DNA from: an uncultured Isosphaeraceae bacterium
GTDB taxonomy: Bacteria > Planctomycetota > Planctomycetia > Isosphaerales > Isosphaeraceae
DNA: 64,000 bases
Direction: 5' to 3'
Assembly: GCA_945957605.1 (NCBI GenBank)
Contig: CAMFLR010000004.1
Span: 62,001-126,000, forward strand
This document shows, piece after piece, positions 12,262 to 57,688 of this stretch. The position numbers and the translations under genes are program-made. Numbering within the stretch: the stretch's first letter is position 1; each line of letters starts with the position of its first letter. The notes under the pieces are model-generated. The model did no database searches. It saw only the letters and a program-made list of their open reading frames with translations, and had not been told where the DNA came from.

Positions 12262-13011
12262 TCATCGATTGCAACTCTTTCGACGGAGCCGCACACAACG
12301 TCCAGAGACCAAGATCAAGGCCCCCAAGGCCACGTGCATCATTGTCGCAGGTTCGGGGACGCTCGGGCCTCTAGGGGTGTCGACTCCATAATTTCCGTCG
12401 CCTCTAGAAACAATCTCGCCTGTGATTTGAGACGCGTTCGCGTCTACCAGGTTCGTCACGTTGGGATTGGTGATGAGGCGTATAGTTGCCGCCAAGGCGT
12501 CCGTCTGCGATCCGGAATAGTCGAAGAACACGCGACCCAACCCAACGGACTGTCCTGTTGCAAGAGAGTTGCTCAAAGCAGATGTTGGATCGAAAAAATC
12601 GCTCGCGATCAGTGCGGATCCCGCAGGAACCAGTGCTGTGATCGATGAGGTGTTTTCAAAGCTGTTTGCTGGACCGGCAATCAGTCCATGGTCGCCGAAG
12701 ATGTAATCGGAAATGCCGACCAAGCCTGGTGTGCCGCTGGGAACTCCACCGACAGAGCGCGTGAACGCAAGCTCCGCGTCCGTAGAAAAAACACCGAAGG
12801 AGAATCCAGCCACATCAAGCGAAGAGCCCTCGTTCCTGATCGTCACATCAGTATAATAGCCCCCTTGTGACGTGCTATTTACATTCACTGGACCGACGTT
12901 GACAATTAGCCCCGCCTGGGCCGAGCGCATGTGGCTCGACCAGAGGACGCAGGCTGTCAGCACAGACGCCACGAAACGGAAGGCGCTTGTTTTTGTGAAC
13001 ACAGAATGCAT
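12262..13011 (-). CDS. PEP-CTERM sorting domain protein
   Basis: A 249-residue secreted protein. The start at 13011 has AGGGAGA upstream. A signal peptide (about 1-33, ending MRSAQAG) precedes a mature domain of about 175 residues resembling cohesin-like or choice-of-anchor beta-sandwich proteins (YYTDVTIRNEG, VGLGRVFFDYSG). The C-terminus has the sorting signal VPEPATMMHVALGALILVSG then an Arg-rich tail, the PEP-CTERM pattern cleaved by exosortase. No exosortase gene is in this window. It lies 40 bp downstream of the RHS giant gene on the same strand, so co-transcription is possible, and the beta-sandwich could be a partner of the giant's dockerin, which is inference. Confidence 0.85.
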   Translation of the reverse strand: MHSVFTKTSAFRFVASVLTACVLWSSHMRSAQAGLIVNVGPVNVNSTSQGGYYTDVTIRNEGSSLDVAGFSFGVFSTDAELAFTRSVGGVPSGTPGLVGISDYIFGDHGLIAGPANSFENTSSITALVPAGSALIASDFFDPTSALSNSLATGQSVGLGRVFFDYSGSQTDALAATIRLITNPNVTNLVDANASQITGEIVSRGDGNYGVDTPRGPSVPEPATMMHVALGALILVSGRCVRLRRKSCNR

Positions 13012-13051
13012 CGAATAATCTCCCTTGGTCATAGTCATCAGTAAAGTGCGA

Positions 13052-16000
13052 TCAATTTGACGGCGGCAGTTTGGTGCCGATCTTCTTCTGGACGAAGATC
13101 ACGTCGTTGACGTCGACAATGCCGTCGCCGTTGAAATCGGCCCAGGTCACGTAGGGGCCAACCATGTCGTTACGCGTATAAATCGCGTCGACGGTTGTTA
13201 CGGTTCGATCACCGTTGAAATCGCCTGGAAGTACGTCGAAGTTCCACGAATTTGCACCAAACAAGCCGATCGACTTGGCACCAACCAACGCGCCGATTCT
13301 TGTTTTGTCCAGACTCAACAAAAGCGCGTCGATGCCAATCGCCGATGGCAGGTTCCAGGTAACATCGGCGGATGCCGTTGTACCCGAGGTTGACGGAAGG
13401 TAGTTTACACCCGAGTTCGAGCGACTCGTGAGTGAGAGAGCACTTGCATCGGGGGCTTGCACCGGATCGGAGAAGATCACCTCGAGGCTCTGGATTGTGG
13501 CGAATGGCAGGTCGCGATTCAGTCCCACGATCGATATTGATTGCTTGCCCCAGTGCACGCGAACATCGGTCACCTTCGGATGGACGGTGAGCGTGCCGGG
13601 AATGCCGTTGAAGTCGTAGTTCGTCGCTGACACACCGCTGACATCGACGTTGATCGGATACTGGCCGGCAGCGCTGAGGCTCGTAGCCGTCGTACTCAGC
13701 TTAGGCACACCGGCAATCACAGATGGCAAATCGCCGTTGACGAAACCGGTGATGGCATCAGTCAGTGCAGGAACTGCGTCGCCGTGTCCCATATCCTGAT
13801 CGTTGGCAGTGACTGTGAGATGGGCCTTTGTCACGTCGAGGCTCCCGTTGACGGCCGAGAACGTGTAATCGAGCGCGGATAGCGTGGCCAGAGTTACGGT
13901 AATCGGATAAGTCCCAACAGGGCTCGCCGCGGTGGCTGTTGTGGACAGGCTTGGGGCGCCGCCGACGACGGCGAGCGTGTCGCCGTTCACAAATCCACTG
14001 AATGTTGCCGTGAGATTGGGAAGTGTTTGGCCGTAGACCTTAGTCTGATGGTCGGCCCTCACCGTGAGCGCGGCTTGATTGATCGTGAGAGTGCCGCTAT
14101 CGAACTGGGTGATATCGTAGTTCGCGGCGGAAAGCGTGCCCGTGTCGATCGTGATCGGATACGAGCCAACATGACTGGCCGCGGTTGCAGTCGTTGAGAA
14201 CGACGGACTGCCGCTCAATACCGAGGCACTGTCGCCGTTGACCAATCCCATGACCGTGTAGGTGAAAGCAGGATTGGCCTGACCGTAAATGCGTTTCTTG
14301 TCATCGGCGGAAATACTCAGGAGAGCACGCGAAATTGTAATCGGCAGATCATCCGCCACGGCCGACGCGAGCGGTCCGCTGCCGGAATAGACTGCCGAAA
14401 CGAGATAGGTGCCAGCACCAAGCGAGGAGATCGGCAGAGTTGTGGCTATGCCGTTAACGAGAATGACGGGGGCACCGAAGCTGACGCCGTTGAGCAGGAA
14501 CTGCACCGCGCCGGTGGGTGTTGCAAGTGCCGGATTTGTCGGAGCAACGAAGGCCGTAAACGTGAGGGCATCGCCGTAGACAGGTGCGGCCAAACTACTC
14601 TCGACGCTTACTGACGTTTCCGCTTTGGTGATGCTTTCCCCGCCTGCGAGTGAAGCCTGACTGCCCGAAAACTCGGTGGAATCGGGAATGTACAGCGCAA
14701 TGATTGAATGGTTACCTACTCCGAGTGCACCTAACGTTGGACTGGTCGCAGCGCCGTTGACAAGCGTCACGGGAGACCCAACGTTCGCACCGTCGACCAC
14801 GAACTGAACAGCGCCCGAGGGAACATCAGCACCAGGTTGCGTCGCACTCACTGTTGCGGTGAAGGTGACGATGGAACCATAGGGTGAAGGGTTCTGGCTT
14901 GATTGAATCGCCGTCGAAGTGCCTGCACCAACAAGCACGAATGTCTGCGCTTGAGCCGATGCTGGTGTGGGCTCGATGTTGCCAACGTTGTCTGTAGCAA
15001 CGCTATAGAAACTGTAGGTGTGGCCGCTTTGCCCAGTGAATGTCGCGGATGTAGCGGCAGTGCCCAGAAGGAATGGCGTATATACACCCCCATTATCGGA
15101 AACGTAGATATCGTAGCCTGCGATACCGGAGCCGCCGGGATTGTCATTGCCAGACCAAGAGACACCGAAGCTGGGTGAACTCGTCTGCGGCAACGCGGTC
15201 ACGCTGCTCTCTGGTGCTGTGGCGTCGATCGTATTCAATGCCTTCGGCGTGTCGATTGGTGCATTGGTATTGAAGACAACGCTTGCCATCGCCTGAATCA
15301 CTGTGCCGGAGAGATCGCTTGCTTTGGGCAATACCGTATAGCTCACCCAGCCTTGCCCCTCGGGCGCTGTCTTGTCTGGAGGCAGAAAGCCTTCGAGTAC
15401 GATGCCCTTGGGTTCGTCTAATGTCTCAGGATCGATCGACGTGAACTGCCAGGTGAGGAGACCAGTCTGTTCGTCGAAGTTGCCGGTCACGTCGACGAAA
15501 ACGCCGACGCTGCTAGTAGCATCGATCCGTGTAGTGTAGAACTGGCGGCCGGCTGGCACTGTATAAGTTCGACCGCCGAAGCCGAAATCGCCGAGTTGGA
15601 ATGTGCTCCAGTCGAGATTTGGGTCAATTTGTTCGGTGATCGTCACGGTTTGGGCGGGAGCGAGCGCATCAGACTCATTTTCAAAACCGATTTCGTAAGG
15701 CAGTTCGGTTTGGGGTTGAATAAAGCCCTGCGACCCATAGCCGGCTGGCCCTGAGATATAATTCGGGTCGACTGCCGCGATTTGTACGACGGAGTACTCT
15801 CCGTTTTGGTCCTTGATCACATCATAGTGAGGAGCAACACGCGGCCATTCTTGATAGAGCTTCGAGGCCTGATCGAATACCAGGCCGACAGACACGATCG
15901 CCGCTCCAATCGAGGCGACTGTTGCGAGCAGAGCCGCGCCGCCCGCCCCCACGGAAAGGCCGAAAATGCCAGTGGCCTCCCCAAGCGCTGTCCCTGCTGC

Positions 16001-22000: not shown

Positions 22001-23899
22001 AATCCACGAACCCTTGGTCGCGCCGAGAACCAGAGTGCTGCCGGCATTGTTCAATTGTCCGGTGACATTGACCACGCCGCCGGTTCGAGTGAAGTTCGCC
22101 AGGTCGGCCGTGGCAAAGTTGCCGCCCAGGTTGAGCGTGCCGTTCTGCACCACGATCGCGCCCGTGTTCGACCACGACCCAGCAAGTGAAAGCGTGCTGT
22201 TGCTTGTCGTTTCAAGGAGAGCGCCGGCCGCATTTGTCCAGGAAGCGGTTGTGGGGTCGAAATACATGTTGCCGCCGGAAGTGGCTTCGAGAATGCCTCC
22301 GGCCGCATTCGTCCATGATGTGCCACCGAAGAGGCCGAACTCGATCCCGCCGGTGTCGGCGTCGATTGTTCCCTGGTTGATCAGGCTTCCACTGGTGACG
22401 AGGAGTGAACCATTTCCCCCGTGCAGAGTGACTCCCGGGCCCATCGTCATGTTGCCCGCGACTTTCATTGTTCCGCCACGGCTGGCGAACTGGATTTGCC
22501 CGGTTCCGGTGACGGATTGGTTACCGACGAACGAGACTGTGGGCAGGAAAGTTGCCGCACTAATTTCGACCAGGCCGAGATTGCCCAGAGTGAGTCCGTT
22601 GGCAATCGTGGCTGCTCCCGTGGCCACCAAAAACTCGCCGGGTTCATCTACTCCGCCGATGGCTGTCCCGAGGGTGAGACCGTCTAGCGCTCCGCCGGAA
22701 TAAGTTGAGTTCAGCACAGTGCCGTCGAGCGTCACGAGTGCGCCGCCCTTGAGCGAACCGCCGGCGAGGTTCCACGAGCCTGTCGCGGCGTCTAGGATCA
22801 ACGTGGATCCAGTGTTGTTGAGCGTGCCGGTCAGGTTCACCGTGCCGCCGTTCGACGTGATGCTGTTCGGGCCGGCGGCGGTCGTGAACGTGCCGCCCAG
22901 ATTCAGCGTCGATTGATTCGTTGTGAACTGCCCAGTGTTGCTCCAGTTTCCGCTCAGGTTTGCTGTGCTGCCGTTATCGAGTTCGAGCAGACCGGCGTTG
23001 CTCCAGTTACCTTCCAGATTCAGAGTGCCGTTGTTTGCTTTGAGCGAAGCACCGGCGGCATTACTCCAGTTGCCGGTAATTGAGAAGGTGCGACCGTAGT
23101 CAGGCTCGATGATTCCTTCGTTGATCAGATTGCCGATCGAGCTTTTGATCAGTCCACCAGTTCCGTGAACTGTGATCCCTGGGCCGAGCGTGACGGGAGA
23201 GCCAATCGTTGAAATGGTTCCCACCAAGCCGGGCGATCCGCTCGTTCCTAGCACGATGTTGCCGGTTCCGTCGATCGTCGCTTCCACCAGTTCAAGCTCG
23301 CCGGCATCGCCGACGGTGATCTGTCCGCCGTCTGCGAGTGTCAGGCTTTGCTGGACGGTTGCCTTTGCATCCACGAAGCTCAATATGCCGCGGAGGGTGA
23401 TATCCTGAAGATTTGCGCCGGCGGCGGTAGTCGTCACAGTTGTGCCGGCCTGGATATCGGCGGCGGCGAGTGAACTACCGTTAATCACAATTCCAGCGGA
23501 ATCCTTCAACAAGCCGCGCGGCGTGTTTCCAATGAGTCCGGCGCCGCCCGTAAGCTGAAGGCCATCCAAGCCATTGATGACGAGTGGCGCGTCCGAGGTC
23601 AGGCTGTGGATATCGTGTACGACGAGCTTCGAGATCGAGACGGCACCGCCGAAATTCAAAGCTGGGATGACTACATCGTCGGCAGATCCCGGGACGTGGT
23701 TCGTACTCCAATTCGACGCATCGTCCCAATCGCCAGCGTTTTGGTTGATCCACGTGACCACAGACAGCATCCGGCGCTCTTCCAGTTCCTCGATGTGAAG
23801 GCGACGAACGAGCGCCTTCCGCGACTTTTGGCGAACGATCGCGGCAGCTCGCCTGCGGGCTTTTCGCGGACTGGAATCTTGATGCGAAGTGCGTGGCAT
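13052..23899 (-). CDS. Giant LEER protein: beta-helix, CARDB, RHS/YD, MBG, dockerin
   Basis: A 3615-residue exported surface protein. The ATG at 23899 follows GGGGAGAG. Basic N-terminus with LEER at 39-42. Order: G8/beta-helix repeats (about 60-1200), a CARDB-like domain (1236-1350, IKNQGGSAL), a PPC-like domain (1356-1460, SGSIASGQDVYYRVNVPAGQ), a DUF6531-type RHS start (about 1745) and some 25 YD repeats (1790-2530). The RHS core ends at GNIYEYATNNPVTQADPTGF, followed by a hydrophobic segment (2636-2683), a beta domain (2730-2880), fibronectin-like (about 2900), two Ig-like (3000-3190) and three MBG domains (3190-3443). A linker then leads to a type I dockerin (3553-3613, DFNGDRTVTTVD and DFNGDGIVDVND). 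No toxin domain ends the RHS part. Upstream by 247 bp lies a receptor kinase gene. Confidence 0.88.
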   Translation of the reverse strand: MPRTSHQDSSPRKARRRAAAIVRQKSRKALVRRLHIEELEERRMLSVVTWINQNAGDWDDASNWSTNHVPGSADDVVIPALNFGGAVSISKLVVHDIHSLTSDAPLVINGLDGLQLTGGAGLIGNTPRGLLKDSAGIVINGSSLAAADIQAGTTVTTTAAGANLQDITLRGILSFVDAKATVQQSLTLADGGQITVGDAGELELVEATIDGTGNIVLGTSGSPGLVGTISTIGSPVTLGPGITVHGTGGLIKSSIGNLINEGIIEPDYGRTFSITGNWSNAAGASLKANNGTLNLEGNWSNAGLLELDNGSTANLSGNWSNTGQFTTNQSTLNLGGTFTTAAGPNSITSNGGTVNLTGTLNNTGSTLILDAATGSWNLAGGSLKGGALVTLDGTVLNSTYSGGALDGLTLGTAIGGVDEPGEFLVATGAATIANGLTLGNLGLVEISAATFLPTVSFVGNQSVTGTGQIQFASRGGTMKVAGNMTMGPGVTLHGGNGSLLVTSGSLINQGTIDADTGGIEFGLFGGTSWTNAAGGILEATSGGNMYFDPTTASWTNAAGALLETTSNSTLSLAGSWSNTGAIVVQNGTLNLGGNFATADLANFTRTGGVVNVTGQLNNAGSTLVLGATKGSWILEGGTIQGGALATLGSQNLQTDAGGTLSGLTLGATVAGQPQPGNVLVATGSAAVNGGLTLANGSVIQVNAATFLPQISFNGNQTVGGNGQIVFAGRGGAMQVQGNLTLGAGVTLHGTNGTVNIQSGSVLNQGTIDADGGGPLTLQGAAGTSWSSTGLITSHNSTLELGGYFKTSTIGTIDATQGFIGIAGTLTNDIPLVLNDITGALVLDGGIIIGGLITTTAGAELLVKGGGTLNGVTIQGTLDDSLYGSGLSPLITNGLTLVGATIALAGTNSLTFTGTEALSGTGTISIDSQGGGNQGLLLLGTNTALTIAPGISIHGHGYIGSTAGSTVTMNGTVNADDGGTLAIQGATNLAGGALTGGTWEATNNSKLEIIGSQITTNAAKIVLSGPSSHIYSDLGSTSALSTLAANASGAQLTITGGANITDTAALTNAGVVSLGLNSTLTVASYLQTGGGTSLQWGTLATAPHAGINIQGGMFSGPGSVQGDLTNAASLDLGIATGTLNVTGNFTQTPTGALTVALGGTSPSKQYDQVIVNGTANLGGTLDIKLVNGFGTAIGQTFTVLSFAGENGNFSTTSGLSVGGQAILNPILNPTNLTLQAISNQPDLIVTNAAVTSTNAFAGQPITVNFTIKNQGGSALTGSWVDTIFLSSLTTLDPSAIMIGHVTHNGGLAVGASYQGTLTAILPGTAEGNYHVLVEADGQSLEPDVDRSNNVLASAALAVAIPTITPGTPISGSIASGQDVYYRVNVPAGQDVKLTANFTSPSQADFLVRALQFPTVSTFDHDYPTPSDLIQSLILPGSQPGATYILLHGRGAAGAGQSFTLSVSTSSLEIQKYALQSYATQGITTYALTGAGFTPHTTVRLVDASSTAYAAMSVTYADSTHIFAAFNLNAMPPGTYQLEALDNGNTAFAPKPLVNDADVNETTVAQGQLSPHEAGGYISVGGSIDVILNVRNQTGHDVIAPVIEVTGTNVALKQNPLTIYPFGQGTDGGLLPVVGPYSHVKLDISAPVVPAQAGVGGTIGYGVVDLQAPIDWNSQKDVLRPSNISADAWDAIYANFIQALGPTPAVMQQVLFNDELYLSSLGESVTSVDQLMGYELMKAEDAMTGPSLNTAVDDSIPAPGTPLSFQRTYIQSLDGRYRLGTLGRGWVSNWDISASTDAAGKVTIFDAGHIRVFTPMSGGGYQSEPGDYGALNLVGGVYQLREKDGTITAFLHDGRLNYIQDANGNRVTAGYNGTQLMTLTHSDGDSLFLVYNPQGRISQIIDSAGWSTTYTYDGSGQHLLSVSNPSGTTQYTYIDGANIEQEHALQSITHADGTHTNFSYDALGRLSQQSGDGGSGQLNYTYFNPGGYTITDANNAVTQILYDVNGQPAQTTDPLGNITQLRYDSNGQLIMSGLVGGLSTSFTYDANGNVTKIVDPLGNTSQFSYNPLFGSLENYVDPLGNATGYQQDGQGNPLGITYPNFSSMQATSDASGNLIQAVDARGQIVANDYNGRGQIIDQTLSDGTHIVYTYDNQGNLASATDANGTTTLTYDNAHHLTKIAYPNNQYLKYTYDAGGRRSSMTDQTGFTVNYQYDAVGRLAVLSDGQNNLIASYSYDAAGRLLCEDMGNGTYTTYTYDLAGNTKSLINYAPNNSINSRFDYTYDANGLRTTMTTLQGTTTYGYNAAGELTSVLLPGNRTITYSYDATGNRTEVSDSGVATDYTTNNLNQYTSVGGTSYTYDAAGNLIVKVGGGTGTIYTYDTEDRLTGVQNATDTWIYQYDALGNRIGAIHNGQAEHFLIDPLGQNALVGEFDSKGNLLAHYTQGIGLTSRIDASNAKTFYNFDGSGNTVGISGSAGTYVNSYSYLPFGEIQSSAQTIANPFQFGGQLGVMAQGNGLNIMGARFYDPATGRFLSRDPIGIAGGGNIYEYATNNPVTQADPTGFYPVGYGYGPAANLGFYGGQASSYGSQTVYVVNADLTSTVVTGAKTAVASVEENPGVWSTVTAAASGAWATFNTWAAGTALGEATGIFGLSVGAGGAALLATVASIGAAIVSVGLVFDQASKLYQEWPRVAPHYDVIKDQNGEYSVVQIAAVDPNYISGPAGYGSQGFIQPQTELPYEIGFENESDALAPAQTVTITEQIDPNLDWSTFQLGDFGFGGRTYTVPAGRQFYTTRIDATSSVGVFVDVTGNFDEQTGLLTWQFTSIDPETLDEPKGIVLEGFLPPDKTAPEGQGWVSYTVLPKASDLSGTVIQAMASVVFNTNAPIDTPKALNTIDATAPESSVTALPQTSSPSFGVSWSGNDNPGGSGIAGYDIYVSDNGGVYTPFLLGTAATSATFTGQSGHTYSFYSVATDNVGNIEPTPASAQAQTFVLVGAGTSTAIQSSQNPSPYGSIVTFTATVSATQPGADVPSGAVQFVVDGANVGSPVTLVNGAATSPTLGALGVGNHSIIALYIPDSTEFSGSQASLAGGESITKAETSVSVESSLAAPVYGDALTFTAFVAPTNPALATPTGAVQFLLNGVSFGAPVILVNGIATTLPISSLGAGTYLVSAVYSGSGPLASAVADDLPITISRALLSISADDKKRIYGQANPAFTYTVMGLVNGDSASVLSGSPSFSTTATAASHVGSYPITIDTGTLSAANYDITQFDSGTLTINQAALTVRADHQTKVYGQTLPNLTATFSGFVNGDTLAVVGGAPSLSTTATAASPVGTYPITVTLATLSALDYTFSAVNGSLDVTKAHLTVTANDQDMGHGDAVPALTDAITGFVNGDLPSVIAGVPKLSTTATSLSAAGQYPINVDVSGVSATNYDFNGIPGTLTVHPKVTDVRVHWGKQSISIVGLNRDLPFATIQSLEVIFSDPVQAPDASALSLTSRSNSGVNYLPSTSGTTASADVTWNLPSAIGIDALLLSLDKTRIGALVGAKSIGLFGANSWNFDVLPGDFNGDRTVTTVDAIYTRNDMVGPYVTWADFNGDGIVDVNDVIFVQKKIGTKLPPSN
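21350..22760 (-). repeat. Two long beta-helix repeat units in the RHS giant
   Basis: Two successive units of about 260 residues share the same order of phrases (DGLTLG/SGLTLG, AATFLP, GNQ(S/T)V, GQI(Q/V)FA, GVTLHG, NQGTIDAD). This indicates duplication of a whole helical segment rather than of single rungs. Confidence 0.6.
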
Positions 23900-24146: not shown

Positions 24147-27100
24147 TCAGCGGGCGAAGGGATTGGAAGGGAGGTTTGGGAGATTCGTACCAAACAAGTT
24201 GCGAGCTTCTGCGAACAAGCCATCGATCTCGTAGCTCTCGCCTGCGTCGGTAATCCTGGCCTGAGCTCGCCACTGCTCGGCTCGTGCGAGGGTGGCTCTC
24301 GCGAGTTCAATGCGACCGAGACGATGCTGACACATCGCGAGCACGAGCAGGTCGAACACATCAGGGCCACGTTCTTTGATGTTCAACTCGCTAAGTTTGA
24401 CGCTCTCTTGATACTCGCCAACGCGATACAGAGAAAGAGCCAGCGTATTCCTGACATTTTGCTTGTTCGACATGATTGCCAGAGCCCACCGCGCCCAGCG
24501 GACAGCTTCGGCCGGATCGCCGCGACCTGGCCGCAGAGCGAGACACCAGGCGAGTTCGTTGGCGGGAAGCCCCCAGTCAGGCCGCTCTCGAAGGCTGGCT
24601 TTGTAGTCGGCCGCCGCCAGTGGCCATAGGCCGATTTTTGCCCAGATTCGGGCGCGACGATAGAGCTGGTCGGGATCCGTCATTTTCGATCGGAGCATTC
24701 CACGGAAAGCGTAAGACGCTTCAAGCAAAGCTTCGAAGCCAGAGAGACGCAACAGTCCCTTATCATCAACGCCCATGACCGTGACTGGTCCGGGAGTCGA
24801 TTCAAGCTCATCGTCGTCATCGTGACTCTCGAACAGGTCTGGAAACCCTCGCGCCAGGTTCAACCCGACAAGCCTTTGGCGGATTCGCGCGAGATCCCAA
24901 AGCGCGACCTTTTGGTTGCTGTATGAAACGGCGAGCAACCGGCCATCTGGGCTAAAGCTCGTGGAATAAGGGCTGACGTCGTCCGGCCCCTCAAGAGTTG
25001 CGAGAATCTCTCCCGTATCAACATCGGCGAGTCGCACCACTGAACGAGTCGCCTCGTTGATTGCAACGAGCTTGCCGCTGGGATGGAACTCCACCATCTT
25101 GAAGCCAGTGTTCCCGCCATGGGGGATCTCGGTCGCGAGAGTCCAGTCAGAGGTTCGGTAGAAACGAATATGAGACGCTCCAGTCATCGCGATCAGCCGG
25201 CCGTCGGGACTGAAGTCCGCTCTGCTGTTGACAACAGGGAACTCGTGCACGAGCCTGTTGCGATTCACGTCCCAGATGCGGACGGTCGTTTCTTTGCGAG
25301 TTGATTCAACTCCCGACGTGGCAACCCACCGGCCGTCGCGACTGACATCGAGGTAGCCGACGTCGTTGTGCGGACCGAGCCACGTAGAACTCCAGGGACG
25401 GCCTGGGTCGAGGAGTAAGGTTGCCTGGTAGCCCTTGGCACTTAATGCAAGGAACCGTCCTTTGGAATCGCTATCGAGGCCCGTGGGAATGTTTCCTGAG
25501 TTTCCGAGGAAAGGCGCGAGCAGCATTGGCGGGCCAATGGTTCCTTCGCCATTCTCTCCCGGCCGAAAACGCCAGTGGCATAGGCCGAGAAAGTTGTAGG
25601 TGACGAGTGAGCCGTCGGGAAGGAAGACTGCTTCGTCGCAAACGCCAATCGGCAATCGTGCTACTTGCGAGCCGTCGCTTGCTCGGACGATGAGCACGCC
25701 GTCGGGCCGCATCGGTAGCGCCACGAATCGGCTATCGGGACTAAAACTCACGCGAGCGGGGCCGAAATGCTGATCGGTGGGAGGATCGGCCAGGGCACGG
25801 CAATCGATATATCGATAACCATCGCCTGATCCAATCCGATAGCGCGTGAGGCTATTGGGAAAGCCTGCGACCGGGTCGCGATTCGACTTCGTCCAGCCCC
25901 AGAAGTTACCTGGCAACACCATAAGCTGGCGGCCACGCAACGGATCCCAGCAACGCACCGTGCCGTCCCAGGCCCAGGATGCGAGAAGCCCGTTTGTTCC
26001 CAGGAAGAGCACGTTGATTCCGCTCGCTTGATGCCCCTGGAGCATCGAGAGCTGCTCCGCTGTTCCAACTTCGTAGACCCAGATTGACCGGTCGCTCGAA
26101 ACGGCGAGTAGGCGGCCTTCGGGGCTCAGCGCCACGGTCGAATGCACGCGCAGCGCTGGGAGCTTCGGTTCGAAAAGCGTCCTGTCGGTTTGGACGTCGT
26201 GAACCCATGCTTTTCCAGCGTCCTGGTTGAGGACGGCGACCCGCTTTCCATCGGCGGAGAGGGAAAGCGCCATGAAGTTGAGCCGGGTAGGGAATGTCGA
26301 CGGGATCCGGCATCGGCCCGCTACGGTCATATCGGGAAGGTTGAAGAGATCGACTTCGCCATCCGGTCGTAAAACTGCGACCTGCAAGCCGTCGCTACGG
26401 AATTTCGCGCAACGTACGTCGACCGGCCAGGCCGAGGGGATTTCGCTCCGCTCCAGATCCCACAGCTCGATTCGTCCCGCCGGCGCAGACACGAGTAGGA
26501 ATCGACCGCCTGGATTCAAGAACGGCCAAAACCGTTGTCCCGCATTCTTCGGTCGAACCACGCTGAGTTCCGACTGATCGGACAGCCGGCGAATGTGAAT
26601 CTCGCCATCCTTGCCGAGGTGGACTTGTCGGTCGACGTCGAATGCGAAAGAGTCGAGATGCTCGTATACATCGAGTCCGCTCCAGGTTTGAATTGGCCGC
26701 ATTCCCCCTTCGGCGAGCGCTGCAATTGCTTCGTCGCGCAACTCCTTCAGCAGAGTCGGGGGAGTTGCATCATCCTGGGCGATCTGTGCGGCGCGGCTAA
26801 GCGTTTCGACCGCTGCGTCTCGCACACCGGGTTCGCGGGCATGTCGTAGCGCGCGGCTTTGCAACAACAACGAACGTGCAAGCTCGATCCTGGTGTTTTG
26901 CTCTTCGCGCCGCTTCTCGTCGCGCTGGGTGCGGAAGGTCAAGGCGGCGACGGTCGATCCCACGGCAAGTACCGTCGTAAGCAATGCTGCCAGCAAGGTG
27001 AGAACCGCGAGCGCGGGATTTTTTCGCGACCATCGCCAGAGCCGTTCGGGGGCCGACGCCCGCCTTGAATGGATTGGGCGGCCCGCGAGGAAACGATCGA

Positions 27101-28316
27101 GTTCCCGCGCCATTTCCGCCGCGCCGGCGAATCGATCGGACGGACGCTTGGCCATCGCCTTCAGTACGATCGTTTCGAGGTCACGCGGGATTCGTGCGTC
27201 GAGTGCTCTTGGCCGCGAAGGCTCGACCTGAAGGATCGCGTTCATCAGCAACATGCGATCGAGGGCAGAGAATGCCGGTCGTAGCGTCAGCAATTCATAA
27301 AGCGTGAGGCCAAGGCTGTAGACGTCTGATCGTGCGTCGGCCTTGCCTCGGAAACGCTCAGGCGCCATGTAACGCAGCGTGCCCACAACGTCGCCTGCGG
27401 CCGTGAGTTCCTCGGTCCCTTCTTCCCTCGCCAGGCCAAAGTCAGTTACCCAAAGAGTGCCCTCGAGGTCGAGAAGGAGATTTGCCGGCTTGATGTCGCG
27501 ATGCAAAACGCCGTGCGTGTGGGCGTGAGCCAGTGCCTCGGCGGCCTGCAGGCCCATGCGGGCCACAGCTCGAAAATAGTGTCGCTCCTGGCCACCGTAC
27601 CCGGACAGAGACGACGAGGAATTTGATACTTGCACCTGTTCTGTGGGCGCTTCGACACTCGTACTGGCGCCAGTTAGCGGGGCTCGGTATTGGCCAGTCC
27701 GGAGCCCGGTGGCAAGGCGTGGCGGCAAGTCGCCATCGGCGACATCGCCAGTCGTGAGGTTGCTACTGCCATCGTCGCGTTGGCGGGTCAACTCTGCGAG
27801 AACCGTGTCGAGGCTTCGTCCCTCGATGTACTGCATCGCGTAGTAGTGAATGCCTTCGTGTGTACCCACCCCGAAAACCGGCACGATGTTTGTGTGGTGC
27901 AGCCGTGCCGCAGCCCGTGACTCGCGCTGGAACCGAACGAGATGAACGGCCTCCATGTGGCGGTTGAGCGATAACACCTTTAACGCGACGCGCCGCCCCA
28001 GGCTCTCCTGTTCAGCCTCGTAAACCACACCCATGCCGCCACGGCCGATTTCGCGGAGAATTCGAAATTCGCCAAGCCGATCGGGTGGTGTTGCGGTCGA
28101 TGGACTCGCGCCTTCTGTCCGACGGTTTTCCTGACGCGTCCCACCGACCCGTTCCATCATCACCAGGGTCGGAAAGAGGTCGCGAATATCATCGGCGAGG
28201 TCGGGGTTGTGCTGAACGTATTCAGTAATCGAGGGATGTTCGCCGCGGCGGAGACGCTCGGCGAATTCGTAAGCCAGGTCGTTGAATACCTCAGAAGGGG
28301 TGGCTGGATCGCCCAT
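24147..28316 (-). CDS. Ser/Thr protein kinase with WD40 and TPR repeats
   Basis: A 1389-residue receptor-type kinase. The N-terminal 80 residues match the short helical leader of planctomycete kinases (EFAERLRRGEHPSITEY). The kinase domain (about 83-410) has GRGGMGVVYEAE, ALKVL, HRDIKPANLLLD (Asp274), DFGLAREE (Asp292) and APERFRG; a Ser/Thr-rich loop of about 80 residues is inserted before the catalytic loop. A membrane segment follows at about 432-460. The outer part has WD40-like propeller repeats (about 560-1150) and TPR-like helices (1205-1375). Its ATG is 3 bp after the stop of the ECF sigma gene, so the two are translationally coupled. This sigma-kinase pairing suggests that ligand sensing by the propeller controls the sigma factor by phosphorylation; that is inference from the family. 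Confidence 0.92.
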   Translation of the reverse strand: MGDPATPSEVFNDLAYEFAERLRRGEHPSITEYVQHNPDLADDIRDLFPTLVMMERVGGTRQENRRTEGASPSTATPPDRLGEFRILREIGRGGMGVVYEAEQESLGRRVALKVLSLNRHMEAVHLVRFQRESRAAARLHHTNIVPVFGVGTHEGIHYYAMQYIEGRSLDTVLAELTRQRDDGSSNLTTGDVADGDLPPRLATGLRTGQYRAPLTGASTSVEAPTEQVQVSNSSSSLSGYGGQERHYFRAVARMGLQAAEALAHAHTHGVLHRDIKPANLLLDLEGTLWVTDFGLAREEGTEELTAAGDVVGTLRYMAPERFRGKADARSDVYSLGLTLYELLTLRPAFSALDRMLLMNAILQVEPSRPRALDARIPRDLETIVLKAMAKRPSDRFAGAAEMARELDRFLAGRPIHSRRASAPERLWRWSRKNPALAVLTLLAALLTTVLAVGSTVAALTFRTQRDEKRREEQNTRIELARSLLLQSRALRHAREPGVRDAAVETLSRAAQIAQDDATPPTLLKELRDEAIAALAEGGMRPIQTWSGLDVYEHLDSFAFDVDRQVHLGKDGEIHIRRLSDQSELSVVRPKNAGQRFWPFLNPGGRFLLVSAPAGRIELWDLERSEIPSAWPVDVRCAKFRSDGLQVAVLRPDGEVDLFNLPDMTVAGRCRIPSTFPTRLNFMALSLSADGKRVAVLNQDAGKAWVHDVQTDRTLFEPKLPALRVHSTVALSPEGRLLAVSSDRSIWVYEVGTAEQLSMLQGHQASGINVLFLGTNGLLASWAWDGTVRCWDPLRGRQLMVLPGNFWGWTKSNRDPVAGFPNSLTRYRIGSGDGYRYIDCRALADPPTDQHFGPARVSFSPDSRFVALPMRPDGVLIVRASDGSQVARLPIGVCDEAVFLPDGSLVTYNFLGLCHWRFRPGENGEGTIGPPMLLAPFLGNSGNIPTGLDSDSKGRFLALSAKGYQATLLLDPGRPWSSTWLGPHNDVGYLDVSRDGRWVATSGVESTRKETTVRIWDVNRNRLVHEFPVVNSRADFSPDGRLIAMTGASHIRFYRTSDWTLATEIPHGGNTGFKMVEFHPSGKLVAINEATRSVVRLADVDTGEILATLEGPDDVSPYSTSFSPDGRLLAVSYSNQKVALWDLARIRQRLVGLNLARGFPDLFESHDDDDELESTPGPVTVMGVDDKGLLRLSGFEALLEASYAFRGMLRSKMTDPDQLYRRARIWAKIGLWPLAAADYKASLRERPDWGLPANELAWCLALRPGRGDPAEAVRWARWALAIMSNKQNVRNTLALSLYRVGEYQESVKLSELNIKERGPDVFDLLVLAMCQHRLGRIELARATLARAEQWRAQARITDAGESYEIDGLFAEARNLFGTNLPNLPSNPFAR

Positions 28317-28319
28317 TGG

Positions 28320-28955
28320 TTACTCCTCCAGCCATTCGGGACCGACGCTGGCCATGATCTCCTTGAGCCGTCGGAGAGCGCGGATGTATCGCATGGCCGC
28401 GGCCTTTTCCTGGATTCCCAGCACCTGTGCAGTCTCGGACGGCGAAAGCTGCTCGAAATGGCGCAGCGCGAGGACTTCGCGATCGAGCGAGCCCATTGCA
28501 TCCAGGGCTTCCAGAAGCCGCGCTTCGAGCTCTCGGCGGATTGCCGCTTCGCTGGCTCGTGTAAGATCGTCGAGAAGTCCAGCGACCATCGCCGATGTGG
28601 TCGACTCCGGGGCAGCGCCGTGAATCGGCACTTCGCGACGAGCGTCGCGCATTTGCGTTCCCAGGTGATGCCTGTGAATCTCGAGCAGCCGATTTCCGGC
28701 GATTCCGCGGAGCCAGAGATAAAACGGAACGTCAGGCGCACGCTGGAACGAATCGAGACCTTTCCACGCTTCGAGATAAACATCCTGAAGGACGTCTGAA
28801 GGATCGACACGTCCCTGCAGCCGCGGATCGAGCCGAAATGATACCATGCGTCTCAAACGTGGGCGGCTCTCTTCAACGAGCGATTCCCAGCTATCGACGT
28901 CGCCCTCGGCGGCGAGCCGGATCGTCTGGTCATTTGAAAGCGGGCCTTCGCTCAT
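28320..28955 (-). CDS. ECF-type RNA polymerase sigma factor
   Basis: A 211-residue ECF sigma factor of the planctomycete type. The sigma-2 region (about 30-95) has MVSFRLDPRLQGRVDPSDVLQDVYLEAW and FYLWLRGIAGNRLLEIHR; the sigma-4 region (about 150-205) has LDREVLALRHFEQLSPSETA and a helix-turn-helix to VLGIQEKAAAMRYIRALRRL. The start at 28955 (MSEGPLS) fits the usual family length, although the ribosome site is weak; a GTG-led extension to 29063 has no family similarity. No anti-sigma factor follows; the WD40 kinase begins 3 bp downstream and probably takes that role. Confidence 0.9.
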   Translation of the reverse strand: MSEGPLSNDQTIRLAAEGDVDSWESLVEESRPRLRRMVSFRLDPRLQGRVDPSDVLQDVYLEAWKGLDSFQRAPDVPFYLWLRGIAGNRLLEIHRHHLGTQMRDARREVPIHGAAPESTTSAMVAGLLDDLTRASEAAIRRELEARLLEALDAMGSLDREVLALRHFEQLSPSETAQVLGIQEKAAAMRYIRALRRLKEIMASVGPEWLEE

Positions 28956-29160
28956 GAGAGATTCGACACCCGTTATACACACGCGAATTATTTCCGAAGC
29001 AGCGCCTCGGATTTGCCTTACCCGATGAAAATCGTACCGCCTGACGCCTCCGCGATGAAGCACTTATGCCGGATCATACCGATATACCAGCGCCCGGCGG
29101 CTTGCCTTCGACGTCAAAAGCAACTGAGACTTGCGTCTATGGGAGACCGCGAACTCGTGC

Positions 29161-30564: not shown

Positions 30565-30648
30565 GGCAATTCCTCGACTGAAACGAGCGGTGACGACCAC
30601 AGGATCGTAACAGCTCGCTCAGACGGGATCACGCGAAAATGATCGCGA

Positions 30649-30676
30649 AGGTCGCTGGCATGAAAACCAGCGACCT
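30649..30676 (-). terminator. Hairpin after the 1907-residue LEER gene
   Basis: Perfect 10-bp stem AGGTCGCTGG / CCAGCGACCT with an 8-nt loop, 20 bp downstream of the minus-strand stop at 30696. A CATTTTCGC stretch follows, and the peptidase gene begins 85 bp further on. It may attenuate rather than stop read-through. Confidence 0.55.
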
Positions 30677-30695
30677 GGCGAAGCATTTTGCAATA

Positions 30696-33600
30696 TCAAC
30701 TCAAGGTCATGCCCAGAAGGATGACGTTGTTGTTGTTTGGCAGCGTGACGGACTTCACAACCTTCGTCTTGTTCAGCGCGAACTGGTAACCATAAAGATA
30801 ATAGGGTCCGGTCTGAGCTGAGCCATTCGTGTTGTCGCGATAATTCGTCTTAACGGCGACACTTTCGCCGGAATTGCTGTTAGACACTCCCCAGTCGCTC
30901 AGCGTCTGGGTGAATGTCTGCGAAGTTCCATCGGTGTAGTTCACGACGAAATTCTGGTTCACCTGCTCCCCGTTGACCGCGTTCCCCACGAACGACAGGT
31001 TACTGAACGATCCGGCGGGCAGGTTGATCGTTTGGCCGCTCGCGGCGACCGCGTTGTTCGCTCCCAGCGATCCGGGATAGAAGAGCAGCCCGGCCCAGGA
31101 AATTGGCGAGCCCAAGCTCGATGCCGAGAACGCACTTCCCGCCCGGTCGATTCCCGGATTGTTCGTGAACGAAGATAAATCCGCGATGATGCCGAGACGG
31201 TTGAAACTCGCTTGCAAGTTGACCGAAGTTCCCACGAGCGGCGGAGCGCTCGTTTGCGGCGTGTAGGTGATCGTGTAATTGAATGGGTTTGGGAATTCCG
31301 TCGATCCGCCGGAAAGCGTGCCGTTGAACACGCCATTTCCAGAGGTCGGCTCGAAATAGGGGACGAGGTTTCCGGGCGAGTAACCTTGTTGACCGAATCC
31401 CCAGTTAAAGAAGGCATCGGCCCAGGTCGCGGGTGCCGATGCACCAGTCGTCGGATTGACCGCGGGCTTCGCTGCGTAATACCAGCCACCGTTGAGGCCG
31501 ACATAGGGTTGCTGAGGATCAATTGGCGACAGATTGACGCCGTTGATTGCATTTGGCGTCGAGACGCCAGGCGTCGCCGGTGCACCAAAGAGCTGGCTGA
31601 GCGTGCTCAGCGCGATCGGATTCTTATTCGCGTCGACCAGGTTCCAGCCCGAGATCATCGAGCCCGACTGGGAATAGTTATACCCATAGGTCGATTCCTG
31701 AAGCATAACGGGCGTCAGCGACAGGAAATATCCCGGCGAATTGATGTTCAGTGCGCCGGAGTCGGGAGCGTAGGGAAGACTTACGTCGCCCAAGTAGGGC
31801 GGGAAGTAATTTGTGGCAGGAGTGATCAGATTCGTTTGATCGTAGGGGCCGACGTTGACCGCGTGGCTTCCTTGAAGTGCCTGCAACTGGCCGAGTTGCG
31901 TGACGAGCGGTCCTTCGGTGTTCATCTGAGGCAGGAACGTGGCGAAGTTGCCCACGGTGTTGCCGGAGAAGATCGTCAGGTCGTCGGTGGTGTCGTTCGC
32001 AACGACGTAATCATTGAAGCCGTCGCCGTTGAAATCACCGGCAGCGAGGCCCGCGAAGATGCTCGTGCCGTTGGACTGGAAATGCACGGGTGCGTTATAC
32101 GTTCCCGGACCGTTGCTGAACAGCACACCAATTCCGCTGTAAGTGTTCGATGAGTGTTTCGTGTCGATCGTCTGATCGTACGCGAAGACCAGCGACGGGT
32201 AGGGGCTGTTATTCACCGGCACGGCGATCAATGCGCTTGGCTGATAGTTGAAATCGCCCGTCGAAACCGTCGTCGGACTCTTAAACGTCCCGTTCCCGTT
32301 GCCGAGCAGAATGCTGATCTCGCTCGACGAATCGGTGTTGTCTGCAACGGCCAAGTCGAGGTTGCCGTCGCCGTTGAGGTCGGTCGCGACCAGACCTTGC
32401 GGCCCGTCGGGTCCGCCTAGGCTGATCTTCTGAGCGGCCTGGAACGTGCCGTCGCCATTGCCGAGCAAAAGGCTCAGGTCGTCGGTGGAGTAGTTGGAAA
32501 CCGCGATGTCCTGGTTGCCGTCTTTGTTGAAGTCACCAATGGCGATTCCCTCTGCGCCATCACCACCCTTCAAGCTTACGGTCTTGGCATCCTGGAAAGT
32601 GCCGTCGCCGTTGCCGAGCAGAACGCTCAGCTCGTCGCTGGAATAATCAGTGACGGCGAGGTCGAGAATGTGGTCGTTGTTGAAGTCGCCGATGGCGATT
32701 CCCTTCGGACCGTCCGGGCCTTTCAGGCTAACCTTTTGGGCCTTTGCGAATGTGCCGTCGCCATTGCCAAGCAAAATGCTCAAATCGTCGGTGGAGTAGT
32801 CGGCAACTGCGAGGTCGAGACGACCGTCGCCGTTGAAATCGCCAGTTACGATTCCTTCAGGACCATCACCGCCGTTCAAGCTAACTGTCTTGGCGGTTTG
32901 GAACGTGCCGTCACCGTTGCCAAGCAGGACGCTCAACTCATCGGTCGAATAGTCGGAGACGACCATATCGAGCTTATGGTCGTTGTTGAAATCGCCGACA
33001 GCAATGCCCTGCGGTCCATCTGGGCCGTTCAGACTGATATTGTTGCCAGTAAGGTTGGTTGTTTGCCCGTTGCCGGTTGGAAACGTCGTGGGATCGGTCG
33101 GAACCCAATGGAAGACAGCCGGGACCATCGTGTGCCATGAAGCGCGGCTCAGGATATTGGTTGCAGCGTCGCTAGGAGACAGCTCGCTCTTGCTCAGCAC
33201 AGCGCCGTCCATGTCCTGAAGTGCTTTCACCAGACCGTAGTTGCTCAGGACGGCCTGAATGAAGGTTGTGCTCGTCAAGGCGGCGTAGAAATTCTTCCAC
33301 TGATTCGTCACTGCGGCTGTGATGTTCGTGGAGAGGTCATCAAGGTGCGTCGCGTTTACGATGCTCGTCGTGACTGTGCCCAAGGGGACAGTCAGAGACA
33401 CGCTCGACGGCACTCCTGCTTCACCGATGAACGAGCCGGCGATCGAAGCGCCAGCGCCACCAAGAATCGCACCAAGAATTGGGGCACCGACCGCGGGCAG
33501 TCCGAACACAGCGCCAAGCGCTCCGCCCAAGGCCCAAACTGCGGCCTCGCCAATGACCTGGCCTGCGGACGGCGCGGCATTTGTGGGGAAGCTGACGGTT

Positions 33601-36419
33601 ACATTCTGAACTTGCTCCGCCTGCCCGTTCGCGATCGTCGCGGCGATGTTTGCCGGTACGCCGGCCGTTGAACTTACCGTTGCGAGGAAGTCGTTAACCC
33701 AACTTGCGAGCGTGGTCGGATTGGTCGGCGAGCCCGAGCCGGTGAGCACGGAATACGCCGTCTGCCGCATAATGTTTGCGTTGTAGAAGAATTCGTAAAC
33801 GGCATTTTGCGGGCTGCTCGCTGGCTGAACGGGGAACATGTTGTTCCCGTTGGGAGGCGTCGGCGGGCTGACGTGATACGCCTTCACGTAGGCATCGTCG
33901 AGGTCGCTCTGCACCGACCCGGCGCCTGTGGGCAACGTGACCGCGCTGTTGATCAGATTTGCGAATCCACCGCTTAAAGTACTGCTGTTCGAGACGAGGG
34001 TCGAATAGGCAGCGCTGAGTTGAGAAGCCCAGTTTGCACTGGTAGTAGCGAGCGGAGTGGGGAAATAGTTCTGGTCGGTCCAGAGCGGGAAATAACTTGC
34101 TGCCGCGGAATCACCCGATGAGTTGCCGGCGGTGTTATTGACGCCAGGAATGCTTGGGTCAGAATATGCCCACTGATAGACGACGTTATCGGGACCGGTG
34201 TGATTGTAACTCGTCAGCAACTCGGCCAAGCTGTTCAGAGAGCCGGGCGCAAGCGAGAAACTCACAGCGACGCCGCCGCCATTGGGAGGCATCCAGGTCA
34301 GTGTGATCTTGTAAGTGCCTGTGCGAGTCGCGCGGACAAAGGTGCTCTCCCCGCCTTTGATCGTCACCGAACTTGTGGTGCCGAGGTCGGTGACGACATC
34401 GACTTGGAGTTGGCCTAGAGACTCATCGGGCACCTGGATTTCAAGCTGATCGCCTGCATCGAGACCGACCTTGCGGACAACCGGAGCCCCCTCATTCACC
34501 GTAACTTGAGGCGATGCGAGAGGGGTCATGATATCGAGCCCCCACGTTCGCCCGCCTGCCAGCCGTTCAACGTCGGTGAACGGGTCGGTGGGGATGGTCG
34601 TGGGAACTTGCACCACGGTTGTCCCAGCAACCGGTGCGACCGCGCCGCCTCCTCCAGGGACCTGATTTGCCCATGAGGTGTTCGAGGCTGCGTCGAAGTT
34701 GAAATACTGCAGGAGATCCGTCTTGAGATCGTCGGCGGAAACAGGCGAGGTCATCGCTTGTTGGACCTGGCTCTGCGTTAGCGCAGTGGTCCAGCTTGCG
34801 ACCTCATCAATTGTGCCGATGAATCCCTGGGGATAGTTGATTTGAGGGTAGGGAGTGGACTGCTTCTCGGGGAACGTCGTCCCGCCGAGAGTGAAGGCCG
34901 TCGGCGCGTTGGCTGATCCACCATTGGCAATTGTGGGCGTGAACGAATACGAACCGCTCGAGAGGTTGATGACGCCTTCGAGCATACCGTCGAGGTAGAG
35001 GGATTCGCTGGTGCCCGTCACGACGAATGCGACGTGATGCCACGTGTTATCGACGACCGACATCTGGCTGACGATCGGATTCGCCGCGCCAACCTGGGCG
35101 TATCCGCTCTTGCTTTCGCCGCCTTGCAGTCCATTGGCAGCCTGCCAGCTAAGGACGGTCATGTTGTTCTGCACGGGGAGTTGCGTTGTGTCGAACAACC
35201 CCGCGACGAGATTTCCTGACGAGTTGATGTAGATCAACGGGGCTTGCATCGCAGTGCCATTGACTGCGACGTTTTCCGAAAGCAGGGCACCCGGCGATTT
35301 CGCCTGGAACCAGGTTTGGAAAGTCACACCCGATGTCAACGAACTCACGAGCGAATAAGGCAGAGTGAGCTGAGGCTGAACCGCTGTGCCGGTCATGATC
35401 GCGTTGTAAGGGACTTGCGGCAGAACGACGCCGTTGCCCCAGGGCGAAGCAGAAGGAATGCCCGTGCCCGACACGGCGAGAGGCTCGTTATAGGCGGCGG
35501 GATCGGTGACTGGATCGGGAACGAGTGCCTGCCGGTTAGTTAGGTAATATTGATCGACCGGATCGCCAACATTCACGCTCGCCGAAACACCGAGCGCGGA
35601 GCGCCGCTCGACATCTTGGCGCGACTCGGTACTCGAAAGGAAGCGAGCGAGCACGAGGCGGAAGCCCTGAGGACCGGCGATTTCGCGATTTGCGACCTTC
35701 AAGGTTTGGTCTGAGAACTGGCCCTGTGTCAAAGCGATGCCGGAAAGGCGCTCAGTCCAGGTACGCTGGAACTGAGGCGTTTTCACCAGGGCATTCAGCA
35801 AAGCCAGCCGCTGTGCAACGGTGTCGACAGGGCGATTTTGGAGCGAGGCTGGCAAGCTCGCCGCGCTGAGAAGGTCGCGTGCAATCAGCTTGCGGTACGC
35901 CAGCGGATTGCGATTGGCCCGTGCAAAATATTCCTGGCTCGCAGCAATCTGGATCAAGGCCGGCGCGAGATCACCACGCTTGATGAAACCCGAGGGATGA
36001 ACGTAAGGAGCGCTGGGATTCTCGGTGCGGTTCAGCAAGAACTGGTAGGCAAGTTGCGAAGTCGCGACGCGTCCTTCGGGAGTTTGCAGCAATTTGAAGA
36101 TCGCCGTGCGCGGCGAAAGACCGTTGGCGATTTGCGTGGCCGTTCGCGTGACAATTTGCTGCGGCAGAGTCGTGTGCAGCACGAGCTTTGCCAGATCGTT
36201 CAACCATCGAACGTTATCTGCAACCGTCCCCGCTTGAGTTCCTGACACGACCGCCGGTGCCAGCGACTGCACGGAACTCAGAGGCGAGGCTGTGAGCGCG
36301 ATCCGCTCCTCGAGGGCTTCAAATTGCAAGCGAGACGCTCTGCGTCTCGATGCGCGGCCCTGGAAAAGTCGACCTTCCTCGTGATTTCGCTGCTCGCGGC
36401 TCCGCGCATTCGCTGCCAT
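30696..36419 (-). CDS. Giant LEER protein: DUF4214-like, LamG-like, VCBS repeats
   Basis: A 1907-residue exported protein; the ATG at 36419 has GAGGA upstream. Basic N-terminus with LEER at 36-39 (FEALEERIALTASP). Order: helical DUF4214-like repeats (about 60-290; VHPSGFIKRGDLAPALIQIA, SQEYFARANRNPLAY), a LamG/concanavalin-like sandwich (346-546; YLDGMLEGVINLSSGSYSF, GTIDEVASWTTALTQSQVQQ), a beta domain with pre-peptidase-like features (about 600-690) and a long central region with a Gly/Ala-rich membrane-like segment (about 950-985). Five or so VCBS/FG-GAP repeats follow (1125-1386) with Ca-binding loops such as GDFNNDHKLD. The C-terminal third is a planctomycete-specific region ending in beta strands. 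Probably a calcium-stabilised adhesin or matrix protein. A 17-bp palindrome sits 47 bp upstream. Confidence 0.82.
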   Translation of the reverse strand: MAANARSREQRNHEEGRLFQGRASRRRASRLQFEALEERIALTASPLSSVQSLAPAVVSGTQAGTVADNVRWLNDLAKLVLHTTLPQQIVTRTATQIANGLSPRTAIFKLLQTPEGRVATSQLAYQFLLNRTENPSAPYVHPSGFIKRGDLAPALIQIAASQEYFARANRNPLAYRKLIARDLLSAASLPASLQNRPVDTVAQRLALLNALVKTPQFQRTWTERLSGIALTQGQFSDQTLKVANREIAGPQGFRLVLARFLSSTESRQDVERRSALGVSASVNVGDPVDQYYLTNRQALVPDPVTDPAAYNEPLAVSGTGIPSASPWGNGVVLPQVPYNAIMTGTAVQPQLTLPYSLVSSLTSGVTFQTWFQAKSPGALLSENVAVNGTAMQAPLIYINSSGNLVAGLFDTTQLPVQNNMTVLSWQAANGLQGGESKSGYAQVGAANPIVSQMSVVDNTWHHVAFVVTGTSESLYLDGMLEGVINLSSGSYSFTPTIANGGSANAPTAFTLGGTTFPEKQSTPYPQINYPQGFIGTIDEVASWTTALTQSQVQQAMTSPVSADDLKTDLLQYFNFDAASNTSWANQVPGGGGAVAPVAGTTVVQVPTTIPTDPFTDVERLAGGRTWGLDIMTPLASPQVTVNEGAPVVRKVGLDAGDQLEIQVPDESLGQLQVDVVTDLGTTSSVTIKGGESTFVRATRTGTYKITLTWMPPNGGGVAVSFSLAPGSLNSLAELLTSYNHTGPDNVVYQWAYSDPSIPGVNNTAGNSSGDSAAASYFPLWTDQNYFPTPLATTSANWASQLSAAYSTLVSNSSTLSGGFANLINSAVTLPTGAGSVQSDLDDAYVKAYHVSPPTPPNGNNMFPVQPASSPQNAVYEFFYNANIMRQTAYSVLTGSGSPTNPTTLASWVNDFLATVSSTAGVPANIAATIANGQAEQVQNVTVSFPTNAAPSAGQVIGEAAVWALGGALGAVFGLPAVGAPILGAILGGAGASIAGSFIGEAGVPSSVSLTVPLGTVTTSIVNATHLDDLSTNITAAVTNQWKNFYAALTSTTFIQAVLSNYGLVKALQDMDGAVLSKSELSPSDAATNILSRASWHTMVPAVFHWVPTDPTTFPTGNGQTTNLTGNNISLNGPDGPQGIAVGDFNNDHKLDMVVSDYSTDELSVLLGNGDGTFQTAKTVSLNGGDGPEGIVTGDFNGDGRLDLAVADYSTDDLSILLGNGDGTFAKAQKVSLKGPDGPKGIAIGDFNNDHILDLAVTDYSSDELSVLLGNGDGTFQDAKTVSLKGGDGAEGIAIGDFNKDGNQDIAVSNYSTDDLSLLLGNGDGTFQAAQKISLGGPDGPQGLVATDLNGDGNLDLAVADNTDSSSEISILLGNGNGTFKSPTTVSTGDFNYQPSALIAVPVNNSPYPSLVFAYDQTIDTKHSSNTYSGIGVLFSNGPGTYNAPVHFQSNGTSIFAGLAAGDFNGDGFNDYVVANDTTDDLTIFSGNTVGNFATFLPQMNTEGPLVTQLGQLQALQGSHAVNVGPYDQTNLITPATNYFPPYLGDVSLPYAPDSGALNINSPGYFLSLTPVMLQESTYGYNYSQSGSMISGWNLVDANKNPIALSTLSQLFGAPATPGVSTPNAINGVNLSPIDPQQPYVGLNGGWYYAAKPAVNPTTGASAPATWADAFFNWGFGQQGYSPGNLVPYFEPTSGNGVFNGTLSGGSTEFPNPFNYTITYTPQTSAPPLVGTSVNLQASFNRLGIIADLSSFTNNPGIDRAGSAFSASSLGSPISWAGLLFYPGSLGANNAVAASGQTINLPAGSFSNLSFVGNAVNGEQVNQNFVVNYTDGTSQTFTQTLSDWGVSNSNSGESVAVKTNYRDNTNGSAQTGPYYLYGYQFALNKTKVVKSVTLPNNNNVILLGMTLS
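32260..33045 (-). repeat. VCBS/FG-GAP coding repeats with two-unit alternation
   Basis: Tandem units of about 156 nt encode GDFN(N/G)DxxLD and LLGNGDGTF blocks. Units 1 and 3 share GPDGP, NNDH and DELSVLL; units 2 and 4 share GGDG and DDLS(I/L)LL. The array therefore grew by copying a pair of repeats. Confidence 0.7.
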
Positions 36420-57523: not shown

Positions 57524-57538
57524 GAATGAATAATGCAG

Positions 57539-57622: not shown

Positions 57623-57688
57623 AGTCATTCTCGAGGCGAATTGAAAAAGTCGTCCGTTCCGCTCACTATCCTCGGAGCTCAACTCTCA

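Follow-up and report, generated by a model that had tools for sequence, protein, structure and literature searches.

A predicted cohesin with a PEP-CTERM signal is encoded beside a dockerin-ended giant protein in a planctomycete genome and its relatives

Results

Layout of the locus

We analysed a 64,000-nucleotide stretch of contig C4 (G000:C4:62001-126000; hereafter the window) of an 8.8-Mb planctomycete genome (the home genome). The close relatives of one window protein, among named records, were from Gemmata, Limnoglobus and other planctomycetes. The original prediction had described six consecutive minus-strand ORFs, and these indeed fill positions 12262–36419 with the makeup it gave (Table 1). 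The block is flanked by plus-strand genes at 9680–11818 and 36956–40960, the former encoding a LEER protein whose C-terminal end consists of long Gly-Asn rich repeats. The order of transcription is P0006 (LEER giant), P0005 (exported protein), P0004 (ECF sigma factor), P0003 (kinase), P0002 (RHS giant) and P0001 (PEP-CTERM protein).

Spacing divides the block. The sigma factor and kinase genes are separated by 3 bp and the P0002 giant and PEP-CTERM genes by 13 bp, whereas the remaining gaps are looser, at approximately 95–250 bp depending on the start chosen. Because of these two tight pairs and the looser gaps elsewhere, the six ORFs probably represent several transcription units and not one operon. 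A promoter scan was no better than shuffled sequence (3 promoter-like sites vs 6.0 expected) and a terminator scan barely exceeded it (23 terminator-like sites vs 17.5 expected).

Table 1. Features of the locus, with positions in the window
Feature	Position	Strand	Description
P0001, PEP-CTERM protein, 258 aa	12262..13038	-	Signal-peptide-like N-terminus, predicted cohesin-fold domain, PEP-CTERM tail
P0001 PEP-CTERM sorting signal	12298..12363	-	VPEPAT..., hydrophobic stretch, RLRRK
P0001 predicted cohesin-fold domain (structure-model stretch)	12358..12927	-	AF2, VIA, PDB profile
P0002, LEER giant, 3634 aa	13052..23956	-	CARDB, DUF6531/RHS core, Ig-like, MBG_2 repeats, pre-dockerin domain, dockerin
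P0002 C-terminal dockerin	13079..13228	-	PF00404; two canonical Ca loops, DFNGDRTVTTVD and DFNGDGIVDVND
P0002 LEER motif (LEERRML)	23765..23785	-	Follows basic N-terminus
P0003, Ser/Thr kinase	24147..28316	-	Kinase domain with insert, WD40 repeats, TPR-like C-terminus
P0004, ECF sigma factor	28320..29063	-	Likely ATG start 28955; 3 bp from kinase
P0005, exported C25-like protein, 479 aa	29161..30600	-	Neighbour outside the unit; relatives elsewhere, weak PF01364
P0006, LEER giant, 1907 aa	30696..36419	-	Neighbour, not established as a unit member; LamG and FG-GAP, no dockerin
Second dockerin-ended LEER giant, 1810 aa	51917..57349	+	No adjacent cohesin

The six-gene block in relatives

The original prediction suggested a regulated module of all six genes for the display, trimming and assembly of large surface proteins. 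The single strand, the exported or membrane-bound appearance of most products and the tight spacing of the sigma–kinase and giant–PEP-CTERM pairs agree with that idea, but the distribution of the first two genes does not. Relatives of P0005 were found at 12 loci, eleven of them 58–79% identical and one approximately 30%, and in none of these neighbourhoods were sigma factor, kinase, giant or PEP-CTERM genes arranged as here. Across 58 related genomes, P0006 had no relative over its full length; only its FG-GAP repeats and last 190 residues are common to other giants, and it has no dockerin. The gaps around the peptidase-like gene are also the wider ones. A single six-gene module is thus very improbable: the block as a whole is not conserved in close relatives and, since the 12 relatives of P0005 sit elsewhere and P0006 has no full-length counterpart in the 58 genomes, the trimming role is unsupported.

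The peptidase label given to P0005 found weak support. P0005 itself had no Pfam match, but 4 of 10 members of its family matched Peptidase_C25 (PF01364) below threshold (best E = 0.0025), and His223 and Cys272 were invariant in 10 sequences. The family profile had no match in the PDB, and an AF2 model of P0005 built without an alignment was uninformative (pLDDT 38). With weak support from the family, P0005 looks like a diverged C25 relative. The family (L010-L017, L046-L049), whose proteins are exported, is scattered among planctomycetes, always in a different neighbourhood; this patchiness suggests that the gene has been transferred or often lost. Residues 1716–1904 of P0006 (window 30696–31274) form an unnamed C-terminal domain found in several copies in other giants, for example a 9213-aa frame in G033:C280.

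Pairing of dockerin-ended genes with PEP-CTERM beta-sandwich genes

The likely ATG start of P0002 is at 23899, and its C-terminal residues are IGTKLPPSN. Its dockerin has the two F-hand-like calcium loops of Dockerin type I and scored 23.3 bits against PF00404 in one search and 19.6 in another (cut-off 22.9). The next gene encodes P0001, whose best home-genome relative is on contig C27. There it lies 10 bp after the gene of a 4420-aa LEER giant, and a sigma–kinase pair in turn precedes that giant. A dockerin or dockerin-like tail ends the C27 giant and also the genes preceding the P0001 homologues in genomes G020 and G031 (Pfam dockerin matches for C27 and G020). Given these tails, we built a profile from the beta-sandwich alone, leaving out the PEP-CTERM sorting tail, and used it to search the family.

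The profile identified 23 members, spread over 13 of the 45 family genomes. Of these members, 20 immediately follow a dockerin-ended ORF on their own strand (gaps of −58 to 254 bp). Among non-seed members the proportion was 16 of 19. The three members outside the pairing have an upstream gene that looks degraded (L205), none (L211) or one that was not resolved (L201). As background, 144 regions totalling 2.8 Mb of other sequence yielded only two distinct dockerin-ended genes, both in this window. Eight of the 20 paired dockerins lack two perfect calcium loops. Dockerin distances correlated with those of the partner domains across pairs (Mantel r = 0.46, P = 2 × 10−4), a correlation that shared ancestry can also yield. 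PEP-CTERM homologues whose match was confined to the tail (L185-L187) had no upstream dockerin gene within the flanks examined. One pair appears broken: at L124:1582-8127 (G024) a LEER giant is followed by a frame with only the second half of the cohesin-like domain and a PEP-CTERM tail. Transposase-like frames adjoin the C27 unit (L188:2372-3318) and also occur within a region of LEER genes on C7 (L064:7265-8089).

A predicted cohesin fold in P0001

Because the genes upstream of family members end in dockerins, we predicted that the domain of the PEP-CTERM protein is a cohesin. The Pfam cohesin model had no match in 21 family members. A profile of these 21 sequences, compared with all PDB sequences, gave five matches, all of them cohesins (best E = 0.0011). 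An AF2 model of the P0001 domain, made from the 21-sequence alignment, was of medium confidence (pLDDT 71, pTM 0.73), with a low-pLDDT insert at residues 81–102. When this model was compared with known structures by VIA-align, the top 48 entries were all cohesins (Z up to 11.5, 122–141 residues aligned). Foldseek returned both cohesins and CBM2 domains (best E = 3 × 10−4), with CBM2 folds also near the top.

The fold itself allows another function. P0001 could bind a different ligand, such as a polysaccharide, and its place next to the giant could reflect no more than the export of both proteins to the surface: the fold is common to cohesins, CBM2/CBM3 and other beta-sandwiches, Foldseek placed CBM2 at similar E-values, and PEP-CTERM proteins are classically tied to exopolysaccharide (PMC1569441). 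However, VIA put 48 cohesins first, and a dockerin ends the neighbouring gene in 20 of 23 cases although dockerins are scarce, with six in the home genome. We therefore judge another ligand unlikely, and a diverged cohesin, predicted to bind dockerin, is the best-supported reading of the model. The original prediction had described P0001 as a PEP-CTERM beta-sandwich protein; the resemblance to a cohesin that would match the dockerin of the giant had gone unseen.

The sorting signal of P0001 (VPEPAT...RLRRK) scored 19.0 bits against PF07589, just below the cut-off of 20.7. The home genome encodes an exosortase EpsH (PF09721, 215 bits, at C1:655988).

The home genome and the wider phylum

Six Pfam dockerins were found in the 8.8 Mb of the home genome, and the cohesin profile identified four proteins, on contigs C4, C27, C9 and C1. 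All four are encoded directly behind a dockerin gene. The fourth pair was found after the hypothesis had been formed, via separate searches for cohesins and dockerins. The pattern fits five of the six dockerin genes, the fifth being on C7, where a diverged PEP-CTERM relative follows (L224:556-1356); this protein matched the cohesin profile weakly and is maybe a second cohesin subtype. The sole dockerin gene without an adjacent partner encodes the 1810-aa giant in the window (51917–57349), for which a partner in trans is possible. A second sigma–kinase pair lies behind this gene (window 58909–61738), with a cluster of three tRNA genes (Cys, Tyr, Ser) in between (window 57453–57789).

At three of the four family-member loci (C4, C27 and C9) the order on one strand is sigma factor, kinase, LEER giant and cohesin. 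The open frames of the giants are 3634 aa on C4, 4420 aa on C27 and 8296 aa on C9. The C9 frame (G000:C9:78655-103392) has a LEER motif at its start and a dockerin at its end, with the cohesin after it and a kinase and sigma factor before it; for the C9 and C1 giants, and likewise for the C9 kinase, the analysis covered coordinates and end pieces only. The C9 sigma factor belongs to subfamily TIGR02999, unlike those of the other units, so the recurrence is not merely that of one duplicated block. The proposed regulated display module thus failed as a six-gene block, yet sigma factor, kinase, dockerin-ended LEER giant and PEP-CTERM gene recur in that order on two further home-genome contigs. 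Across the family, it was the giant–PEP-CTERM pair that recurred and not the whole block.

Phylum-wide, matches to the cohesin profile are rare: among 392 genomes, four besides the home genome had one, three of them weak. The best of the four, G362 (L215), from another family of the class, has a dockerin-ended gene, a PEP-CTERM cohesin gene and an exosortase gene (PF09721, E = 2.7 × 10−26) in a row on one strand, an arrangement that, as a gene row, ties the predicted dockerin–cohesin pair to the sorting enzyme. A weak match from another part of the phylum (L217:667-2049) combines sub-threshold Pfam matches to cohesin and to dockerin in a single chain.

The sigma factor and kinase

P0004 scored 67 bits against TIGR02937 (cut-off 42.9) and 170.9 bits against TIGR02984, planctomycete sigma subfamily 1, vs a cut-off of 183.75. 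P0003 has, as read by eye, a hydrophobic segment near residues 437–460, between its kinase and WD40 parts. Planctomycete kinases with a predicted extracytoplasmic WD40 part have a similar segment in this position (PMC11032199). PADLOC detected kinase-domain matches in P0003 and nothing else.

ECF43 sigma factors are coupled to Hanks-type kinases in the pairs EcfK–PknS and EcfP–PknT, and phospho-activation of EcfP rests on loss of the sigma2.2 acidic motif (PMC13147305). The present pair resembles these in that an ECF sigma gene adjoins that of a membrane-type Ser/Thr kinase with no anti-sigma gene seen. Unlike in ECF43, P0004 retains the acidic motif (DPSDVLQD) and the P0003 kinase has WD40 repeats. 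As DxxD is intact and not replaced by a target Thr, the ECF43 phospho-switch does not apply to P0004 as such.

We examined whether sigma genes of this kind adjoin LEER genes more generally. In the home genome, 13 sigma factors matched TIGR02984 strongly, and kinase-domain matches numbered 116. Under a strict rule, 5 of the 13 sigma genes have the start of a LEER-motif gene within 6 kb, vs 6% of random genes (P = 7 × 10−4). A looser rule gave 9 of 13 vs approximately 7–11% of random genes, but it was tuned after the home genome had been seen, so the stricter figure stands. In relatives there was no LEER enrichment at sigma genes, the counts of 3/35 and 3/23 (6 of 58 sites) being close to background. 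A general planctomycete rule that sigma–kinase pairs adjoin LEER giants was thus rejected; the association is a feature of the home genome, not of the family.

The absence of enrichment at those 58 sites, together with the richness of Gemmataceae genomes in such pairs (13 strong TIGR02984 factors and 116 kinase-domain matches here), leaves a real chance that the sigma–kinase pair has no link to the giant and stands beside it by accident. This concerns the regulatory part only and is compatible with an anchoring unit. We lean against it: LEER genes lie within 6 kb of sigma genes in the home genome at the frequencies given above, and the order of sigma factor, kinase, giant and cohesin was seen three times with two sigma subfamilies, for which the rough chance is approximately 1 × 10−5. 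Control of the expression of giant and anchor by the sigma–kinase pair is the most likely reading of these arrangements.

Discussion

Giant genes are a known trait of planctomycetes; to our knowledge, their products have no established means of attachment, and planctomycete dockerins have no obvious cohesin partners. From the observed gene order, conserved pairing, dockerin signatures and genomic exosortase, and from the predicted cohesin fold, we infer binding, anchoring and regulation: we consider it likely that two genes at the core of the locus make up an anchoring unit, in which a cohesin would hold the giant by its dockerin, under regulation by the sigma–kinase pair. P0002 would be exported, with its calcium-type dockerin at the extreme C-terminus. 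The next gene would provide P0001, with one putative cohesin domain and a PEP-CTERM signal; the exosortase of the genome would process this protein, which would then stay at the surface of the cell or at its outer membrane. There the P0001 cohesin would grip the P0002 dockerin and, in our proposal, this non-covalent latch, dedicated to the giant, would keep it on the cell. The ECF sigma factor and Ser/Thr kinase, encoded directly upstream on the same strand at this locus and two others, would control both giant and anchor.

Contacts between cohesins and dockerins are the basis of cellulosomes, which are anchored to the surface by cohesin-bearing anchoring scaffoldins such as Ruminococcus ScaE and Clostridium SdbA/OlpA. 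The proposed unit shares with these a surface-attached cohesin, its fold predicted here, that would hold a dockerin-bearing partner. It differs in having one cohesin per giant in a gene pair, a PEP-CTERM/exosortase anchor and an adhesin-like partner, with no scaffoldin seen. A cellulosome was rejected on the single cohesin in P0001, the lack of any Pfam enzyme domain in P0002 and the count of six dockerins genome-wide.

Non-cellulosomal cohesin–dockerin pairs have precedents. In the hypothetical 'planctosome' of freshwater Phycisphaerae, also Planctomycetes, cohesins lie within large anchor or adaptor proteins that tether peptidases, with a lamin-tail tether (PMC6461901). That model includes neither a PEP-CTERM cohesin nor a gene pair of giant and anchor. 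ANME archaea have non-cellulosomal dockerin and cohesin proteins, and exosortase-type sorting is also present (PMC9012536, PMC5244752), but no one-to-one adjacent pair with a sorting-signal cohesin has been described there. The P0001 tail resembles the C-terminal PEP motif, hydrophobic stretch and basic end of the PEP-CTERM/exosortase system, at a profile score just below the Pfam cut-off, and the exosortase is in the genome. Known PEP-CTERM proteins are tied to exopolysaccharide and floc formation (Haft 2006, PMC1569441). In the open papers searched we found no cohesin cargo of this system, nor any mention of PEP-CTERM together with dockerin.

A wider generalisation, to which we give somewhat less than an even chance, is that PEP-CTERM cohesins are the missing receptors of planctomycete dockerins, with one exosortase-sorted latch per giant and, in some loci, a sigma–kinase pair that might sense the outside through its WD40 part and control display. 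The present analysis provides a candidate partner for the dockerin and an exosortase route to the surface, and the sequence profile allows cohesins that are invisible to Pfam to be detected. If the predicted binding is true, these would be new cohesin–dockerin pairs for protein engineering. Our findings suggest that cohesin–dockerin latching also holds adhesin-like giants, beyond enzymes, and the recurrence of giant-plus-anchor gene pairs in related genomes suggests how unusually large proteins may stay on the cell.
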